This document shows, one piece after another, positions 7,149-32,092 of a DNA stretch of 32,092 nucleotides; position 1 is the stretch's first letter; every line of letters starts with the position of its first letter. The DNA lies in IMG/VR virus record IMGVR_UViG_3300044533_001301, positions 1-32,092 of that record; one strand, written 5' to 3'. This DNA comes from a virus. The notes under the pieces are model-generated. The model ran no database searches and was not told where the DNA came from. It was given only the letters and a program-made list of their open reading frames with translations. The position numbers and the translations under genes are program-made.

Positions 7149-7443
7149 AACCGATACCAAAGAGATTAGATTATTTCTAGATTCCATTAGATCAAATGTT
7201 GTCTATGTAATCCCTGCGCTAATTGAGACCTTTGCTGAGAAATATAGATACCATGACCCAAAGACTTTAAAAGAGTTGATGGATTCTGAGTCAAATATTG
7301 GGAGCCTATTTGTCTTGGTGAACGATCAAAGTGACTGGACATATGTCGGGGTTAGTACCAATGGAAAGCCAATGGCCAGATTAATTAATTCAGATCTTGT
7401 ACTAGAATTGAATCCAGATGAGGAGATCAGATGGGTATTTTAA
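7075..7443 (+). CDS. Hypothetical early protein (122 aa)
   Basis: GAGAGG lies before the ATG, which sits 74 bases inside the exonuclease gene. The product starts MSLWELSRSI, is helical over the first 75 residues, then has beta-type sequence (SLFVLVNDQSDWTYVGVS... to the acidic C-terminus). No signal or membrane segment. No family recognised. The end overlaps the next gene by 13 bases. Confidence 0.65.
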   Translation: MSLWELSRSIQKNPENYLQLIDSFKTDTKEIRLFLDSIRSNVVYVIPALIETFAEKYRYHDPKTLKELMDSESNIGSLFVLVNDQSDWTYVGVSTNGKPMARLINSDLVLELNPDEEIRWVF

Positions 7444-7583
7444 AAATTTTAATAATTTTTTTACTTTCTTTTACGCTTGGTCAGCGCAAAGGTTACATGG
7501 AAGGCGTAGAGTCAATCGAGTTTGATAGGATCAATGCCAACATGAAGCTTCAGCAATGCCTAAGAATAGTGAGATCAGAGTGA
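7431..7583 (+). CDS. Small membrane or exported protein (50 aa)
   Basis: A strong site, GAGGAG, precedes the ATG. Residues 2-15 are strongly hydrophobic (GILKILIIFLLSFT) followed by a charged region, so the protein is either anchored in the inner membrane by its N-terminus or exported. The remainder is polar and contains one Cys. It is followed eight bases later by another tiny hydrophobic reading frame and then by the zinc-peptidase-like gene. Together they look like a small membrane module at the end of the early block. Confidence 0.6.
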   Translation: MGILKILIIFLLSFTLGQRKGYMEGVESIEFDRINANMKLQQCLRIVRSE

Positions 7584-7591
7584 GTTGGATA

Positions 7592-7663
7592 ATGTGGGCT
7601 TATCTTGTATTGGTATTAATAACATCATTAATTGTGGCTTATCATACGCCAATAGGAATGTAA
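7592..7663 (+). CDS. Possible 23-residue single-pass membrane peptide
   Basis: The ATG at 7592 opens a frame encoding an almost wholly hydrophobic stretch (MWAYLVLVLITSLIVAYHT) that ends in TAA overlapping the next ATG as TAATG (7661-7665). The hydrophobic run is the right length for one membrane helix. The ribosome site is weak. It may be a real peptide coupled to the peptidase-like gene, or a leader whose translation sets that gene's level. Confidence 0.4.
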   Translation: MWAYLVLVLITSLIVAYHTPIGM

Positions 7664-8085
7664 TGAGATTCAGAAATTGCCTTATCAGTAACGAAGTAAA
7701 CCATGCAATCAAGCAAGTTGAGAAGCTTTTGACAGAAGAATCATCAATGATAAAAGAATTATCAACCAAAAATGACTTCAAATATGGGTCTGGATCTGGT
7801 GAGTCAGTGGTTAAGAAATTACTCAAGGAAAGAGATCTGATCAATATCTATTCGTATCGCCCATGGAATCCACTAACTAAGGCAGTTGGGTATTATGATG
7901 GAAAGTATATTCACATAAATGTCAAAGCACTCGCCACATTCGATTTTGAAAAGCTTTGTGGTCTATTGCTCCATGAGTATTCACATTATTGTGGATTCTC
8001 GCATGGATCTAACTGGAAGGATAAAGATAAGACATTATACAGTGTGCCATATTATTTATCAGAAAATATAACTCGATGGGTTTAA
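7663..8085 (+). CDS. Metzincin-type zinc metallopeptidase-like protein (140 aa)
   Basis: HEYSHYCGFSH at residues 104-114 is a full HExxHxxGxxH zinc motif, the hallmark of metzincins (His104, Glu105, His108, Gly111, His114). The preceding helix and strand (KYIHINVKAL) fit the usual layout. The frame is open from a TTG at 7585, but ATG 7663 has AGGA five bases upstream and couples by TAATG to the tiny upstream frame, so I choose it. No signal peptide is seen in this form, so it would act in the cytoplasm unless the longer start is used. Target unknown; a role against host proteins or at lysis is possible. Confidence 0.65.
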   Translation: MRFRNCLISNEVNHAIKQVEKLLTEESSMIKELSTKNDFKYGSGSGESVVKKLLKERDLINIYSYRPWNPLTKAVGYYDGKYIHINVKALATFDFEKLCGLLLHEYSHYCGFSHGSNWKDKDKTLYSVPYYLSENITRWV

Positions 8086-22751: not shown

Positions 22752-23822
22752 TTATCCGAATATTATAGCGTTTACAATCGAGTTTAAGTTCTGGGCAACA
22801 CTGACCGGCTTGGTCAAATCTGAAGTATTGTCCACATTCCCTAACCCAATGTCATTTGGTGAAACATAATCTGTTACCTGAACCCAATTTGCAGGATAAG
22901 CAACAGGGTTGTAACCTGCAGCACCAATTGCAATGATCATTCTAAAAGATGCGCCATTGTACATGACACCCTGGCCAACACTGTAAGTTGTGCCGTTATT
23001 ATAATCACCTGTCCAATTTACATTTGTTATTAAATTTAATGCATTTTGGGTCGCAGTCGAGATAGGCTTGCTCGCATCAGAAGTATTATCGACCGACCCC
23101 AACCCAACATCAGATTTTGTTAGTGTGTGATTTTTCCAAAGCTGAGTAGCTGATTCATATCTAAGATATTGATTGTTAGCTATGCCATTGATTAGGACAT
23201 TATGCAGCTCTTGAAGCTCTAGGCCATTCTGAATAGTTACGATTATTTTTCCCTGAGTGGGATTTGAGCGAACCACATACCCTATAAACACTGCATGATC
23301 TGGCGCAGGTGGGCGAGTTGTTGTGACTAAACCCGGAGTTGTTGGCGATAACCACAAAAGATCGCCGGCAGTGAAAGATGATGTGTCTAGATTATCGATC
23401 TCACCATTGTGTACGACTGTACCATTGGTATTGTTATTAATTACTAGAGGAGTTACTCCAAAAGTTTTTGAGGAGTTTGGATCATTGTTACCTTGAGCTA
23501 ATGTTATATTTGGCTCATTACCAGTCGAACCGCTAATATATACAACACGAAAAGCTTGTATTGGAACACCAGTGGAATTTCGGCAAGTGAAGGCTACTGC
23601 GCCAGCGCCAGTATCACCCTTTGACGCCAGCAATTGCCAATAGGTCGTATTTGTTGGGACATTGCCTGTCGTTGTCTGAAGTGCCACATATGATGAGCCA
23701 TTATAGCTTACTGACATTCCTGCTTGATAGGTCGTGCCGGACAAATATTCACCCTGAAAATTAGGGCCTGTTAAGGTCAGAGAAATTGGGTCTAATAGTT
23801 TAACAATCTTAAAATCAGACAT
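22752..23822 (-). CDS. Fibre protein with two carbohydrate-binding-like modules (356 aa)
   Basis: Near residues 23-65 (FQGEYLSGTTYQAGMSVSYN to the Trp) and 270-318 (WTGDYNNGTTYSVGQGVMYN to NWVQV) are two copies of a pattern seen in type 5/12 carbohydrate-binding modules: Y-x-x-GTTY, V-x-YNG-S and a closing Trp. Each copy is near a VGLGSVDNTSD or IGLGNVDNTSD segment, the usual fibre repeat. Probably binds sugars on the host surface or in the environment. Relatively CpG-rich. Confidence 0.65.
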   Translation of the reverse strand: MSDFKIVKLLDPISLTLTGPNFQGEYLSGTTYQAGMSVSYNGSSYVALQTTTGNVPTNTTYWQLLASKGDTGAGAVAFTCRNSTGVPIQAFRVVYISGSTGNEPNITLAQGNNDPNSSKTFGVTPLVINNNTNGTVVHNGEIDNLDTSSFTAGDLLWLSPTTPGLVTTTRPPAPDHAVFIGYVVRSNPTQGKIIVTIQNGLELQELHNVLINGIANNQYLRYESATQLWKNHTLTKSDVGLGSVDNTSDASKPISTATQNALNLITNVNWTGDYNNGTTYSVGQGVMYNGASFRMIIAIGAAGYNPVAYPANWVQVTDYVSPNDIGLGNVDNTSDLTKPVSVAQNLNSIVNAIIFG

Positions 23823-26407: not shown

Positions 26408-26901
26408 TAGATCTCACTCGCTAGAAGTTCGTTAAGGACATCTTCGACATTAAACCCGGGCTCTCCATTTAAGTTTTCATCATCTTGATAAGCACTAACA
26501 AGAATATCCAGTTCATCAGGATCAATGCCCAAAAAATCCCTAGCTTTTCCAGGGATGGGCTTACTTTGTCCATAAGTTCCTCTTCGATTTCCTTCAACTT
26601 TTCCAGCAAGTTCATCAGATGCTCCTTTGTAACCAATTACAATTTCACCTGGTTTGCTTGATATGTATTCAATTGAGTCAAGCATCTCGCCTGTGAGGAT
26701 TAGATCCACATCACTAACACCAACACCTTTTTTATCGGCATAGTTTTTTGTGTAGTCTTTGAATTCTTTGTTGTTTTTATCTAGACCAGCAGCAGAACGA
26801 TTGATGATATGCTCAATAATTACATTGGCAATTTTCTTTCTATCCTCAATCTTGAGTGCTCTAGGAAGCTTAATTCTTTCCTTGGTCCAGTCTTTTGCCA
26901 T
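26407..26901 (-). CDS. Head-tail joining protein, second gp10-like copy (164 aa)
   Basis: Helical basic N-terminus (IANVIIEHIINRSAAGLDKN), then DLILTGEMLDSIEYIS and IVIGYKG, and a later KPIPGKARDFLGI motif typical of phage virion morphogenesis proteins. The start and the portal stop share one base. Together with the next gene it forms a tandem pair with the same TG-x-(L/M)-L core. Confidence 0.65.
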   Translation of the reverse strand: MAKDWTKERIKLPRALKIEDRKKIANVIIEHIINRSAAGLDKNNKEFKDYTKNYADKKGVGVSDVDLILTGEMLDSIEYISSKPGEIVIGYKGASDELAGKVEGNRRGTYGQSKPIPGKARDFLGIDPDELDILVSAYQDDENLNGEPGFNVEDVLNELLASEI

Positions 26902-28247
26902 TAAATAAGTGCTCTATTGCCTAGAATTTCATCCACAGTTTCTTGCTCATATTCTGGATGAAGTACCTTGATTGCTTGCTCTAAAGTCATAGTGCCTAGT
27001 TCAATCTCAGCTTTAATCTCATTGATCTCTTCTGTTCTAGACTTCATTGGTTTTGGTTCTTCAAATTCAACACTAATATCAAGATCATAGTCAGGCATTA
27101 ATCCCGGAACACTTGAAGGATTTACCATCCCTGATTTAATCCAATAGTTGTGGATCTTAGGAAGCTTGATATTCCATAGCTCCTTTTCATCCTTCTCAAA
27201 CCATTCCTGAGACTTTTTAATGATCTCGTAAACATCAAGCTCATCGATCATCTTTGCAATGCCTGATGCCTGAGACATTCCATTTATCTGACCCATTGAA
27301 CCAATTCTGATTCCTTTGGTTTCAAGCCAAAGTGTAAAGATAGTAATTACAAAGTCGATTACTTTTTGAGTATCTGCCTCTGGTTTAATTGTTCCAACCT
27401 GTGGAGACTTGTCTGATTCTCTGTCGGATTTAAGAGACCAAATCACATTAGGTCCAATCCTTGCATTTTCAAATGAAATATCGATCCCAAAGATTTGGCT
27501 GAAACATTGGTAAAACTGAGCACCAGCTGCATCCGTAAGCATTACTGGAATAGCTTTACAAACTTTAAGCATATCTGAATCAAGTACTGGCAAAAGTCTG
27601 TTTTTTTGACGCTTACCATAAACGAATGGAATTACACTAATTGGGTTGATTCCTTCATTGTCAATTAGATACTCAGAAGCCTCATTTCCATTTAAATAAA
27701 ACGCATCAAATTCTTGGTCTGTATAAACAAACAATAGAAGAGAATCTTCCTCATCTGACTTTCTACCCATGAATTTGATGAAGATTGTTTCTTCCTCTGG
27801 ATTTACCGCTGAGTCTGACATAACTAGGAAAGAATTTCCTGCAAGTTCTCTGATAGCTGGTTTTCCATTCTTATCAATGTATGGCTCCCATGCGTACATC
27901 TTGAACATATTGCTGTATGCATCTGCAATATATCCAGATTGGTCAATATCCAAAGCATCCTCGTAGAAATCAACAAACTCCTGATTCCTCTCGTCCATTG
28001 ATGTTCTCTTTGGAGACTTTGAATATGTGACTGATACCTTATCAACAAATCTTTGAAGAATATTGATTGGCAAAACTCTATCTCTGATTGAGTTATAATA
28101 ATTTGCAGATAGTGATTGGCTCAATATTCTGTCAACATAAGGAAGCAAATTGCCTTCATAGATGTCTAGTGCCTCAGTATTCTTTGAGATGAATTCTCTA
28201 TTTGCTTTAATGTATTCAATGATTTCTTTTCTTTTTTGCTTAAGCAT
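26901..28247 (-). CDS. Portal protein (448 aa)
   Basis: The position between the large terminase and head-joining genes, the length, and the sequence pattern (YVDRILSQSLS, NILQRFVDKVSVTY, then IPFVYGKR and a long helical region with GSMGQINGMSQASGIAKM) match phage portals of the SPP1/HK97 type. The dodecameric portal is the DNA gate and packaging motor docking site. The C-terminal 60 residues are acidic and helical (EINEIKAEIELG). Confidence 0.85.
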   Translation of the reverse strand: MLKQKRKEIIEYIKANREFISKNTEALDIYEGNLLPYVDRILSQSLSANYYNSIRDRVLPINILQRFVDKVSVTYSKSPKRTSMDERNQEFVDFYEDALDIDQSGYIADAYSNMFKMYAWEPYIDKNGKPAIRELAGNSFLVMSDSAVNPEEETIFIKFMGRKSDEEDSLLLFVYTDQEFDAFYLNGNEASEYLIDNEGINPISVIPFVYGKRQKNRLLPVLDSDMLKVCKAIPVMLTDAAGAQFYQCFSQIFGIDISFENARIGPNVIWSLKSDRESDKSPQVGTIKPEADTQKVIDFVITIFTLWLETKGIRIGSMGQINGMSQASGIAKMIDELDVYEIIKKSQEWFEKDEKELWNIKLPKIHNYWIKSGMVNPSSVPGLMPDYDLDISVEFEEPKPMKSRTEEINEIKAEIELGTMTLEQAIKVLHPEYEQETVDEILGNRALI

Positions 28248-28254
28248 ATAATCC

Positions 28255-29520
28255 TTAAAGTTGAATTGTAGATGATTTAGGTTGTTCCATTTTTAGTGGT
28301 TCGATTGCCCAACACCAGTATCCTAGTGCATCAGAAATGTGTGTGACCATCTTATCTGTTTTCTGGTCAAGTGATCCATCTTTCCATGATACCTTTTCAA
28401 GATCATTAATGAGCTTCCTGCATGATGGATCAATTACAATTCTTTCCTCTCTTAATAGTCTATTTAAATTATTCACTCGGTCAACAACTAGTGGATTTCT
28501 AGTAAATTGAATCTTGAATCCATCATTCTGAAGAATCTGGTGGTCTGATATGCCTGATGTTTTCCTGTTTGACCCAGTAGAATCCGGGTAAATGTTAGCA
28601 CCTTTGTGACCATTCTTGATTAGATGCGTCGACATCTTAAAAGTATCTGAGTTTTCAAGAAATGCTTCTGATATAACATAGAACTTTTTGTTAACATAGT
28701 GACCAATAACTGCTGTCATAGGCTGCACGTTAAAGTCCATCCCTATGCATCTTTGTCCAGTGTGGAATGATTTATCGATTTCCTTTACGTGCATATCTCT
28801 ATCAAATGCATAGTAAGCAGCACCATCATCATCAGAACTAAACTCTCCATCCTTAAACCGCTTTCTTTGAGCTTCTGGAAGGTTGTCTAGTATCTCTGTG
28901 ATGTACTCTGGATCTATGTTTTCCAGGTTGTCTTTTGGATTCATCAGAATTGATGAGTATTTAGAAACATCTACTGGAACATTATCAATTGGGTCCAAGT
29001 GTTTTTGGAACAGCCAATAGGACCAGTGTTTTTTCCCCGGTGGATTCTGATCGTAGTAAGCTTTCTTATTTAGTTTATTCTTTTCAGCTAGTCGTGTTAG
29101 TGCCACTTGAATTGACTTATAAGGTATCTGTGAGCACTCATTGAAGTAAAGTGTTGAGTATTCCTTTCCCAGGATCTTCTCGACTCTTTTCTCATCATCT
29201 AGTCCTGCACACCAAATCTCTGATCCATTTGGAAGTGTCACATAGTAGTCAGTCTTATTCCATTCGACTGCTAGATCCGGGAATGATACCTTCAAAACTT
29301 TGGGCAATGTATCAAGCCAGATTGAAGTTTTAATGTGGTTAAAATTTAACCTTAATATGGCATGGCGAGACTTTTCTTTGGATGCCCTAATAATTAGTGA
29401 CCTGACAGCTAAAAATGTCTTGCCCGATCTGGAACCACCAAACAACATTATATGCCTAGCATCTGATGATAGAATCTTAACTGCCTCCATTTGCTTTGGA
29501 GTTAGTTTAAATTCACTCAC
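28255..29520 (-). CDS. Terminase large subunit (421 aa)
   Basis: Walker A GGSRSGKT (28-35) and Walker B LYFNE (124-128) mark the ATPase; the coupling segment has YYDQNPPGKKHW. The nuclease half has GMDFNV (Asp262), YPDSTG (Asp313) and HISDALGY (Asp397), the acidic residues of the RNase H-like terminase nuclease. It cuts and pumps DNA into the procapsid. The start overlaps the small subunit by four bases. Confidence 0.95.
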   Translation of the reverse strand: MSEFKLTPKQMEAVKILSSDARHIMLFGGSRSGKTFLAVRSLIIRASKEKSRHAILRLNFNHIKTSIWLDTLPKVLKVSFPDLAVEWNKTDYYVTLPNGSEIWCAGLDDEKRVEKILGKEYSTLYFNECSQIPYKSIQVALTRLAEKNKLNKKAYYDQNPPGKKHWSYWLFQKHLDPIDNVPVDVSKYSSILMNPKDNLENIDPEYITEILDNLPEAQRKRFKDGEFSSDDDGAAYYAFDRDMHVKEIDKSFHTGQRCIGMDFNVQPMTAVIGHYVNKKFYVISEAFLENSDTFKMSTHLIKNGHKGANIYPDSTGSNRKTSGISDHQILQNDGFKIQFTRNPLVVDRVNNLNRLLREERIVIDPSCRKLINDLEKVSWKDGSLDQKTDKMVTHISDALGYWCWAIEPLKMEQPKSSTIQL

Positions 29521-29885
29521 AGATCTGATTCATCTTTGATGATTGAAATATGAACGCCAGATGACTCACCTATTTTAACATCATTTTCATGTTTATCTTT
29601 TTGACCTAAATGTTGCTTCCCTAGCCATATAAGCATTGCAGTATTCCCAGACATTGCAACATCATATTGCTTCTTTAGTAGATTGATGCGCATTGGCTCT
29701 TGTACTTTCTTTTTATATTCCGCAAAACCATGACCATATTTCTCTTTTAATCGTCTATCCAAAGAGTCGGAACTCATGCCTAATTGGTCTGCACAATACT
29801 CAGCAGTCGCCCAAACAGCTAGGACTTTAAGCTGATCCCAACCATTAAATTCCATATCTTCAAGCTCTAAACGTGGTCTAGCCAT
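29517..29885 (-). CDS. Terminase small subunit-like protein (122 aa)
   Basis: The N-terminal half looks like a helix-turn-helix (VWATAEYCADQLGMSSDSLDRR would span it), then a helical region and MLIWLGKQHLGQKDK, a hallmark near the C-terminus of many small terminases. It directly precedes the large subunit with an ATGA junction. It would recognise the packaging site. It overlaps the dioxygenase gene by eight bases. Confidence 0.8.
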   Translation of the reverse strand: MARPRLELEDMEFNGWDQLKVLAVWATAEYCADQLGMSSDSLDRRLKEKYGHGFAEYKKKVQEPMRINLLKKQYDVAMSGNTAMLIWLGKQHLGQKDKHENDVKIGESSGVHISIIKDESDL

Positions 29886-30732
29886 TCTTTTTTTTCGCTT
29901 TGTTGTAGTATTCTCTAAGTTTTTCTAAGTTTTCTTTCTTGTTTATTGCTTGTTTGCTTTTTACTTCCTTGAGCCTTTTAAGCTCTTGGTCGTAAGGGTA
30001 ACAATGTTTTAAGTTTTTTAAGGTGTAGTTAACTATCGAACAACGAAAAGCTGTTTTATTTTTAAATGTGCAAGGTGTAACACCATGCAAAACCTCTTGA
30101 CCACGAAAGAAGCACAACCAGCCGTCGCCTTGGTGAAGCGTTAAGCCTAGTTCAGGGCAATCTAGGAACCCACCGTCTACGCCTTCCTTTACTATTAAAA
30201 CATTGGATAAGTCTTCGGGGTTGTTTCCTTTGTCACAATGGTATTTTATAACTTGGTTTAGGTTTATGTTTACGTTTGTCCAGGGTGTTTTTGCTGTAAA
30301 GTAATCTTCGTTTATTTCGTTTTTAACTTTCTCTAAAGCTTTGCCGTAAAGGTTTGGGTGTTTGCTTTCATAGAAGGCGGCTAACATTTCATTCAGCTTT
30401 ATGGCTTTTGTGTAGTTAACCCTTTCTTCTTTGCTTTTGTTTGAAAAACGGCAATAGTCTTCTCTTATTGGTATTCTTGGCAATGGTCCGTAGACTGTAG
30501 AGAGTTGTGGTACCCCGTGTCTAGTTCTGGTGCTTTTTGTTGGCTTAGTATTTTTGCATATTTCTTTAGCAAGCAAATATATTTCTTTAGGTGCTTTGTA
30601 ATAACCTAAAACTAATTCACCTGTTTCATTAAATACTTCAACTTCATAGTCAACCATTTCACCAGTAGGCTTAGATGGGTAGTCACCCGGCTTAAACTTT
30701 GTAGGTTCAATTCTTTTTATAATTCTTTGCAT
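29878..30732 (-). CDS. Predicted TET/JBP-like 2-oxoglutarate Fe(II) dioxygenase (284 aa)
   Basis: The double-stranded beta-helix core lies at about residues 155-240. HCD (His165, Asp167) followed by KGNNPEDLS, then GGFLDCPELGLTL (187-199), LHGV (His216) and AFRCSIVNYT (Arg230) give the iron triad and the 2-oxoglutarate-binding Arg. HxDxGN, GG-x-L-x-x-PE and HGV-x-P are the pattern of TET/JBP base dioxygenases, which oxidise 5-methylcytosine or thymine. Residues 1-150 are a basic, mixed domain that may bind DNA; the tail is Lys-rich. Start overlaps the ParB gene by 16 bases with no ribosome site, so translation is probably coupled. CpG-rich relative to the terminase genes. Another 2OG enzyme type is possible. 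Confidence 0.7.
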   Translation of the reverse strand: MQRIIKRIEPTKFKPGDYPSKPTGEMVDYEVEVFNETGELVLGYYKAPKEIYLLAKEICKNTKPTKSTRTRHGVPQLSTVYGPLPRIPIREDYCRFSNKSKEERVNYTKAIKLNEMLAAFYESKHPNLYGKALEKVKNEINEDYFTAKTPWTNVNINLNQVIKYHCDKGNNPEDLSNVLIVKEGVDGGFLDCPELGLTLHQGDGWLCFFRGQEVLHGVTPCTFKNKTAFRCSIVNYTLKNLKHCYPYDQELKRLKEVKSKQAINKKENLEKLREYYNKAKKKNG

Positions 30733-31331
30733 TGTTTTAAATAGGCTAAAAGGGCGTCGCTTAATATTTCGGTGTTCATTTCTTTCATTACTTCAGAAGC
30801 TAAGAATATAAAATCATCATACTCTTCTTTGTTGTATTCTAGTTTTACTTCTAAAAAGTCTTTGTCTAAATACTTTTCAAGTTTATCAAGGGCACCTTTG
30901 CCATTTTCTTCGTTCTTTGATTCATACTTTTCGGCTGGTTCAATGCTGAAGTCTTTAATACCTAGTAAATCAATGTCGAAATCGGGCCCTAGATCCAACA
31001 TCTCAGTATTAACCGCACTTAAATCAAGCTCAGCCCATGCAGCGATTGCGTTGTCTGATGTAAGGTAAGCATATTCCTGAGCTTCATTGTCAAAGTCTTG
31101 AAACATAGCAGGAACCTCTTTAAGACCAGCCATTTTTGCCGCCTCAATTCGTCCATGCCCTGCCAATACAAATCCAGTTCTATTCGATACCACAACAGGG
31201 TTCCTAAATCCCTGGTATTGAATTAATTTAGCCAGTCTTTCAATTTGTTCTTTTGGGTGCTTATTGTTGTTTTTTGGATTTAAGACAAGTGAATCAATGC
31301 CCACTATTTGGATATTTTTTGCCTGGATCAT
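30717..31331 (-). CDS. ParB/Srx-fold protein (204 aa)
   Basis: The ParB N-terminal fold is clear: NPKNNNKHPKEQIERLAKLI, GFRNPVVV, then LAGHGRIEAAKMAGL (residues 56-70) containing the nucleotide-binding GHGR motif, and VPAMFQDF. There is no helix-turn-helix domain; a short C-terminal part ends at Leu204. Such single-domain phage ParB proteins are found beside DNA-modification and terminase genes. It is the first late gene and overlaps the dioxygenase gene, so it may guide that enzyme or regulate packaging. A plasmid-partition role is less likely without HTH and ParA. Confidence 0.85.
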   Translation of the reverse strand: MIQAKNIQIVGIDSLVLNPKNNNKHPKEQIERLAKLIQYQGFRNPVVVSNRTGFVLAGHGRIEAAKMAGLKEVPAMFQDFDNEAQEYAYLTSDNAIAAWAELDLSAVNTEMLDLGPDFDIDLLGIKDFSIEPAEKYESKNEENGKGALDKLEKYLDKDFLEVKLEYNKEEYDDFIFLASEVMKEMNTEILSDALLAYLKQCKEL

Positions 31332-31355
31332 TCATTCCCACAGGGTTAAATGTTG

Positions 31356-31370
31356 AGAGTCACCGACTCT
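31356..31370 (-). promoter_or_regulatory. Stem-loop at the probable 5' end of the late transcript
   Basis: AGAGTC-ACC-GACTCT forms a perfect six-pair stem. It begins about seven bases after the proposed late -10 box, so the late mRNA would start with this hairpin, which could protect it from decay. It may instead be a second operator. Confidence 0.4.
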
Positions 31371-31377
31371 TTATATC

Positions 31378-31407
31378 AGCCTATGTAAGATTTACATACC
31401 TTGTCAA
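31378..31407 (-). promoter_or_regulatory. Candidate late promoter with overlapping operator
   Basis: On the minus strand a perfect TTGACA (31407-31402), an 18-base spacer, and TAGGCT (31383-31378) form a sigma-70-like promoter reading into the ParB gene and the 23-kb late block. The 17-bp dyad 31382-31398 fills the spacer, so a bound protein would block polymerase. The -10 is weak. Confidence 0.55.
31382..31398. promoter_or_regulatory. Operator-like dyad TATGTAA-GAT-TTACATA
   Basis: A perfect 7-3-7 inverted repeat whose inner part, TGTAA-N3-TTACA, is shared with the dyad at 3984-3996. The two sites are the divergent promoter regions of the genome. Likely binding site for a phage-coded regulator. 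Confidence 0.7.
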
Positions 31408-31427
31408 TCGAATATATTCTATAAAAA

Positions 31428-31667
31428 ATGAAGAATATCATCATGTTTATTCTATTATTTCCATTTAACTCAATAGCACAGGATGCATTGCTTCAAGCAA
31501 TATACGGGAATTGGTATAATCCAAATAAATACGAAAATGAGGATAAGGCTGAATCTGTGGAATCATATGATGAATCTGAAGCTGAGATTTACCACTGGGA
31601 ACTTGGAACACCAGACAACATTCCTGAGATTGAAATCATCTACGAAGACTCTCCATGTAATTTATAA
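31428..31667 (+). CDS. Small secreted acidic protein (79 aa)
   Basis: The only rightward gene in this part, divergent from the late block. Residues 1-18 are a signal peptide (MKNIIMFILLFPFNSIA), with cleavage likely before or after Gln18. The mature part is very acidic (around ENEDKAESVESYDESEAEI) with a single Cys near the end. No ribosome site; AT-rich promoter-like sequence runs up to the ATG. Its separate promoter and export suggest a host-modifying or superinfection-exclusion gene. This is inference from layout only. Confidence 0.55.
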   Translation: MKNIIMFILLFPFNSIAQDALLQAIYGNWYNPNKYENEDKAESVESYDESEAEIYHWELGTPDNIPEIEIIYEDSPCNL

Positions 31668-31669
31668 AA

Positions 31670-31701
31670 GGATGCATCCAGATGGAGGATAGGATGCACC
31701 C
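31670..31701. repeat. Repeated GGATGCAYCC boxes
   Basis: GGATGCATCC (31670-31679), a perfect 10-bp palindrome, is repeated 22 bases on as GGATGCACCC (31692-31701). The pair lies in the 3' region of the secreted-protein gene, before the terminator. Purpose unknown; a protein site or part of a larger RNA fold. Confidence 0.4.
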
Positions 31702-31703
31702 AT

Positions 31704-31740
31704 AAAACCAAAGAAGGAATAACTCTGGTTTTTATTTTTT
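31704..31740. terminator. Bidirectional terminator between convergent genes
   Basis: AAAACCA (31704-31710) pairs with TGGTTTT (31726-31732), extended by a two-pair AG/CT step after one mismatch, then a T-rich run on the plus strand and an A-rich run before the stem that serves the minus strand. It separates the convergent 31428 and 31732 genes. Confidence 0.7.
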
Positions 31741-31878
31741 CTTTTTAGCAGCTTTTTTGGCTTTCTTTGCAACATTCAGAGCAATTGCCACAGATTGTTT
31801 TTGGCTCTTTCCACTCTTCATTTCTGTCTTAATGTTCTTTGAGATTGTTTTTTTTGAATAACCTTTCTTAATAGGCAT
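31732..31878 (-). CDS. Lys-rich small protein, DUF6496-like (48 aa)
   Basis: AGGAG lies upstream of the ATG. The product begins MPIKKGYSKKTISKNIKTEM, then KSGKSQKQSVAIALNVA and a Lys-rich tail. This pattern is that of a small phage and bacterial family (DUF6496) of unknown function; the strong positive charge suggests nucleic-acid binding. It is the last gene of the leftward early block after the junction-spanning gene. Confidence 0.75.
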   Translation of the reverse strand: MPIKKGYSKKTISKNIKTEMKSGKSQKQSVAIALNVAKKAKKAAKKKK

Positions 31879-31895
31879 AAATTCTCCTTAGTTTA

Positions 31896-32092
31896 TTACC
31901 AAATATATATGTCATCATTCCCATTCATCCAGCAAGTTCTTTCTGTGACTGGTCTAATTATTTTATTATCCTTCTCATATTTTCTAGTTTTCTTTAGGTT
32001 GTCTGGATTTATATCCTTTCCTTCTCTAAAGTCAATCATCCAATGACCTTGCAGCACTCCATCACTTACATAAGTCTCATAAATCATCTTTA
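31896..32092 (-). CDS. Hypothetical protein, C-terminal part (same gene as at 1-305)
   Basis: This is the downstream end of the 124-aa gene that crosses the circular junction. Codons about 61-124 are seen here, including the part that lies in the repeat. A Met at 32087 is internal, not the true start, which is at 305. The end has WMNGNDDIYIW. No family recognised. Confidence 0.8.
   Translation of the reverse strand, partial: KMIYETYVSDGVLQGHWMIDFREGKDINPDNLKKTRKYEKDNKIIRPVTERTCWMNGNDDIYIW
31966..32092. repeat. Terminal direct repeat, right copy (circular overlap)
   Basis: Identical over 127 bases to the start of the window. Removing one copy gives a 31,965-bp circle in which the gene at the junction is intact and in frame. 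Confidence 0.95.

Follow-up and report, generated by a model that had tools for sequence, protein, structure and literature searches.

Phage loci in which DNA-modification genes lie between ParB and terminase were described as ParB-TLS loci (Iyer et al. 2013, as covered by PMC6536676); they include ParB-methyltransferase fusions, and ParB has already been proposed to target modification during packaging. The locus studied here resembles them, as PMC6536676 describes them: its modification gene has a ParB-like gene on one side and the terminase genes on the other, and sister phages encode ParB-methyltransferase fusions. Both the kind of locus and the packaging idea are hence already published (PMC6536676). 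The Paracoccus phages of the same paper have loci with methyltransferases, whereas ours has a lone TET enzyme and a hybrid ParB. Our contribution is of two kinds. Firstly, we report a TET that stands alone in what is probably an entire phage genome. Secondly, we present sequence-level evidence for exchange of enzymes behind one ParB module. A direct test of ParB-guided modification during packaging was not found in the accessible literature.

Enzymes of the TET/JBP family are known from several settings. The phage TETs of Burke et al. 2021, as far as they are reported via PMC12730594, share fold and predicted chemistry with ours but belong to a type with a C5-methyltransferase and glycosyltransferases; neither was found in the window, by which we mean the whole analysed stretch of 32,092 nucleotides. 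NgTET1, CMD1, CcTet and human TET2 share the fold from residue 1 of our model and the HxD/H/R set, but they are eukaryotic, only about 10-18% identical and act on 5-methylcytosine (5mC). The actinophages Nigel, Terij, MakoManhole, Tonitrus and Prince have ParB-TET operons in which a homologous TET (21-28% identity) is preceded immediately or at a short distance by ParB and has terminase downstream. They differ by a P-loop kinase (Pfam Ploopntkinase3), often together with an amino acid:DNA transferase (ADDT), between TET and terminase, and the window has neither. The same holds for the operon of in situ thymine hypermodification, where kinase and ADDT stand beside TET; neither was matched in the window or in its closest relative, G001. 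In metagenomic phages (e.g. L040 and L083), ParB-TAGT-TET-TerS-TerL loci contain the same family in the same order relative to terminase, but TAGT, a TET-associated glycosyltransferase absent from the window, is located between ParB and TET.

The window is the record IMGVR_UViG_3300044533_001301. Its ends are an identical direct repeat of 127 bp (1-127 and 31966-32092), as expected of a circular assembly, so that the record is probably a complete circular genome of about 31,965 bp. G001 (IMGVR_UViG_3300032288_004831; 31,929 bp) carries a 123-base terminal repeat. Pfam and PHROG scans, which took in most window ORFs of roughly 90 or more amino acids, recognized structural genes, Erf, SSB, two exonucleases, HNH, RusA and an endolysin-like peptidase. 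One structural-region protein (22752-23822) has chitin-binding CBM5/12 modules (E 5.9e-12) and is perhaps a receptor-binding protein. A scan of bacterial genomes returned three distant relatives only (two Siphonobacter and one Ignavibacteria MAG) and revealed no host.

The block of interest is encoded on the minus strand. A ParB-like protein of 204 aa (30717-31331) is followed by the TET/JBP-type 2OG-Fe(II) dioxygenase of 284 aa (29878-30732), the terminase small subunit TerS (29517-29885; 85% identical in the sister contig L099), the large subunit TerL (28255-29520; Pfam Terminase_3, E=2e-16) and a probable portal protein (26901-28247), the latter assigned by position and a weak PHROG match and homologous in sister phages. 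Neighboring genes overlap, ParB and TET by 16 nt, TET and TerS by 8 nt, TerS and TerL by 4 nt. The original prediction had noted the first two overlaps and the missing ribosome site of the dioxygenase, and had taken ParB and TET as probably co-translated. The overlaps and the missing site were borne out, and coupling is supported: Shine-Dalgarno pairing is +1.3 kcal/mol at the TET start, -1.8 at TerS and -0.9 at TerL, which amounts to no site in all three, compared with a mean of -4.8 kcal/mol over 33 genes of the phage and -1.4 at random sites. Because TET, TerS and TerL lack the Shine-Dalgarno sequences on which the phage normally relies, coupled translation likely extends beyond ParB and TET to the whole block, terminase genes included. 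Promoter-like sites in 28000-32092 were no commoner than in shuffled sequence.

Sequence and predicted fold place the 284-aa protein among the TET/JBP dioxygenases, as had been claimed. It matches Pfam Tet_JBP with E=1.4e-11 (44.3 bits against a curated cutoff of 34.9), and the residues named in the original prediction, H165 and D167 of the HxD motif (30232-30240), the distal H216 (30085-30087) and the 2OG-binding R230 (30043-30045), are invariant across 32 homologous phage sequences. The structure prediction suggested as a check was carried out and gave a confident AlphaFold2 model (mean pLDDT 90.5), for which the best solved matches are CMD1 (Z 20.4), NgTET1 (19.3), TET2 (19.3) and CcTet (17.9), within a TET/JBP range of 17.5-20.4; FTO and ALKBH come next at about 14.8. 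The basic N-terminal 150 residues, to which no role had been assigned, turned out to be part of the TET/JBP fold, since the matches to solved TET/JBP enzymes span model residues 1-272. A separate N-terminal domain was rejected, as this part aligns with phage homologues and superposes on the solved enzymes. A 2OG family that does not act on nucleic acids, such as prolyl hydroxylase, was considered and rejected: TET/JBP enzymes head the structural matches, followed by FTO and ALKBH, and prolyl hydroxylases are missing from the 50 matches listed, an absence which alone does not exclude them.

Compared with its 80%-identical homologue in G001, the TET gene has a pN/pS of 0.19, at synonymous sites near saturation, and is therefore under purifying selection. 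In the TET tree these two pair off by themselves, on a long branch with no resolved position, so the type of partner cannot be read from phylogeny. The family is labelled 'queuine tRNA-ribosyltransferase' in phrog_6059 and several RefSeq records, apparently a misannotation; Nigel gp2 (L012 776-1744) is affected, as are its counterparts in many related mycobacteriophages.

The neighborhood of the enzyme is conserved. A profile scan of IMG/VR gave 365 relatives, 80 of which were fetched and combined with cultured phages into 92 loci, many of the IMG/VR records being fragments. ParB is present in 87 of these loci, TerL in 73, TAGT in 60 and P-loop kinase and ADDT in 20 each; the counts are approximate, as they come from iterated HMMs and a few short ADDT or TAGT matches are overlapping frames. 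Recurrent orders include ParB-TAGT-TET-TerS-TerL and ParB-TET-ADDT-kinase-TerL, with TerL downstream in most loci. One further locus, L029, is apparently another ParB-TET-TerS-TerL block with no recognized decorator, and the lone-TET form is thus not unique. Nigel was considered as an exact match to our block and rejected, since its annotated 'terminase small subunit' is a P-loop kinase. This product, gp3, matches the kinase HMM with E 1.7e-85, and Terij gp3, noted as a HicA-like toxin, does so with E 5e-26; both annotations look wrong (stretches concerned: L012 1786-2382, L004 1577-2155 and L003 8566-9150). An unusual partner occurs in L032, where an FkbM-type methyltransferase (7290-7973) is placed between ParB and TET.

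What, then, might the enzyme act on? The original prediction saw no methyltransferase, and our searches agree in a genome that is probably complete. PF00145 (C5-methyltransferase) had no match in the record at E<=1. HMMs for TAGT, ADDT, P-loop kinase, N6/N4 methyltransferase, Mom and D12 had no match in six-frame translations of either the window or G001, and the Pfam and PHROG scans described above yielded no DNA methyltransferase, kinase or glycosyltransferase. That a methyltransferase was lost from a fragmentary record is unlikely in view of the exact 127-bp terminal repeat. TET is the only DNA modifier recognized in this probably complete genome, while many of its relatives have a kinase, ADDT or TAGT gene alongside. 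The literature connects the kinase and ADDT families with thymine hypermodification.

For a phage without a recognized C5-methyltransferase, thymine is the likeliest substrate, and the product would be 5-hydroxymethyluracil. The same enzyme might instead oxidize host-made 5-methylcytosine to 5hmC, for example in escape from modification-dependent restriction. The characterized phage TETs do oxidize 5mC (Burke et al. 2021, as reported in PMC12730594 and PMC11404850), and a C5-methyltransferase (L142) occupies the position of TET in one sister phage, which shows that the group is no stranger to 5mC chemistry. Against this, a C5-methyltransferase is missing not only from this genome but from almost all relatives (it was found in one of 50 virus records of relatives and in none of 12 cultured phage genomes, one of which, Cr30, is only a distant relative), and the kinase and ADDT partners of related TETs point to thymine. 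We consider the 5mC alternative improbable and retain thymine as the favored substrate.

The ParB-like protein matches Pfam ParB_N (E=1.1e-8). Its AlphaFold2 model resembles, with Z of about 14 over residues 4-101, the N-domains of CTP- or CDP-bound ParB, thus the nucleotide-binding fold of canonical partition proteins, and G58 and R61 are invariant. No HTH domain was recognized in the model, the confidence of which is low between residues about 100 and 160, and there was no ParA-like Pfam match among the scanned window ORFs, a set without the smallest ones. The gene reads as a hybrid. Codons 1-138 (30918-31331) encode an N-module in common with sister phages that have ParB-methyltransferase fusions; its amino acid identity is 91-94% to L099-L101 and 92% to L103, and it is nearer to the methyltransferase-bearing L099 (94%) than to the TET-bearing G001 (80%). 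The C-terminal region (residues 139-204, 66 aa; 30717-30917) shares 89% identity with that of G001 and has no detectable counterpart in 14 non-TET sister contigs, being found here only with TET. An HMM built from the C-ends of other TET-linked ParBs, with the window and G001 left out, matched only the window (3.6e-4) and G001 (1e-4) among 423 proteins, the next value being 0.077, and BLAST agrees. ParB is therefore a hybrid gene, and its end travels with TET.

Breakpoints of an exchange slot (29868-30917, minus strand) are evident from blastn comparison with L099. DNA identity of 83% ends at ParB codon 138 (about 30918), no homology is found inside, and it resumes at TerS codon 7 (about 29867) with 82% identity. 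G001 aside, most of the closest relatives of the window ParB are sister-contig proteins in which ParB is fused to a methyltransferase. A search based on TerS found 22 contigs, some of them near-duplicates, with ParB upstream: 15 have N6/N4 methyltransferase fusions, two have Mom, and TAGT, C5-methyltransferase, D12 methyltransferase, a P-loop protein with GNAT, and ParB alone occur once each. To judge from these families, DNA modifiers can replace one another in the slot, and some of them are fused to ParB. TAGT is located in the ParB slot of L103 (2223-3092), L111 (1670-2536) and L117 (4719-5600), with no TET in the fetched stretch, and in L111 a cytidylyltransferase-like gene adjoins it. The P-loop ATPase and GNAT-like acetyltransferase, separate in L107 (4506-5563) and apparently fused in L132 (2388-3491), are possibly an unrecognized DNA-modification pair.

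In sister phages this slot is occupied by DNA methyltransferases, by Mom or by glycosyltransferases, which lends weight to the assumption that our enzyme works on DNA. One could still imagine a 2OG oxygenase acting on RNA, protein or free nucleotides, and the second rank of FTO and ALKBH among the structural matches would fit this. The nearest relatives by both sequence and fold are, however, DNA-base oxidases and the slot is otherwise occupied by DNA modifiers, which makes a non-DNA substrate very improbable.

The role of ParB is more difficult to substantiate. Tentatively, we propose that its N-module is a general front end for interchangeable DNA modifiers, that the TET-linked C-region is an adapter replacing covalent fusion, and that undecorated 5-hydroxymethyluracil is made in DNA. 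A somewhat more doubtful idea is that ParB, rather than being a targeting factor, acts on its own account during packaging or DNA entry, as an NTP-regulated nickase or clamp, and that its place beside modifiers reflects nothing more than mosaicism at a hotspot. It draws on the ParB part of a Bacillus cereus ParB-methylase, reported to be a nonspecific nickase (PMC5512222), on the lack of a recognizable HTH, and on the fact that TerS, TerL and portal are mosaic among sister phages as well; for example, TerS of the window has no detectable similarity to its counterpart in G001, although the two TETs are 80% identical. It accounts poorly for direct ParB-methyltransferase fusion in sister phages, for a ParB C-terminal region that travels with TET and for the presence of ParB in nearly all TET loci. 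We therefore keep to ParB as a partner of the modifying enzyme. The original prediction had it place the enzyme on phage DNA during or before packaging, essentially the hypothesis published for ParB-TLS loci. The N-domain resembles CTP-binding ParB but no HTH was recognized, so that targeting to DNA is an inference.

Taken together, we find it fairly probable that the locus is a ParB-TLS locus whose TET/JBP dioxygenase, linked to ParB and produced by coupled translation, is most likely a hydroxylase of pyrimidine 5-methyl groups in the DNA of the phage. Enzyme activity, target base, timing, the role of ParB and the benefit to the phage are inferred in the following model. The ParB-TET-TerS-TerL message would yield the enzyme by coupled translation. 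ParB, as the shared partner, may take whichever enzyme occupies the slot to phage DNA near packaging. There the dioxygenase would hydroxylate its pyrimidine, with conversion of thymine to 5-hydroxymethyluracil as the likeliest reaction. Since our searches detected no decorating enzyme, the bare hydroxymethyl base should be the end point. The product might then impede restriction by the host, or other nucleases that attack phage DNA.

The lineage offers a compact comparison, in which a 32-kb phage with a lone TET can be set against sisters in which this ParB N-module is joined to a methyltransferase or has Mom or a glycosyltransferase behind it. As the sole recognized modifier of a genome that is probably complete, the TET is also a clean test case. 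If thymine is the substrate, then this phage would represent, in minimal form, a viral counterpart to the thymine hydroxylation of the JBP type, performed in DNA and not at the nucleotide level.
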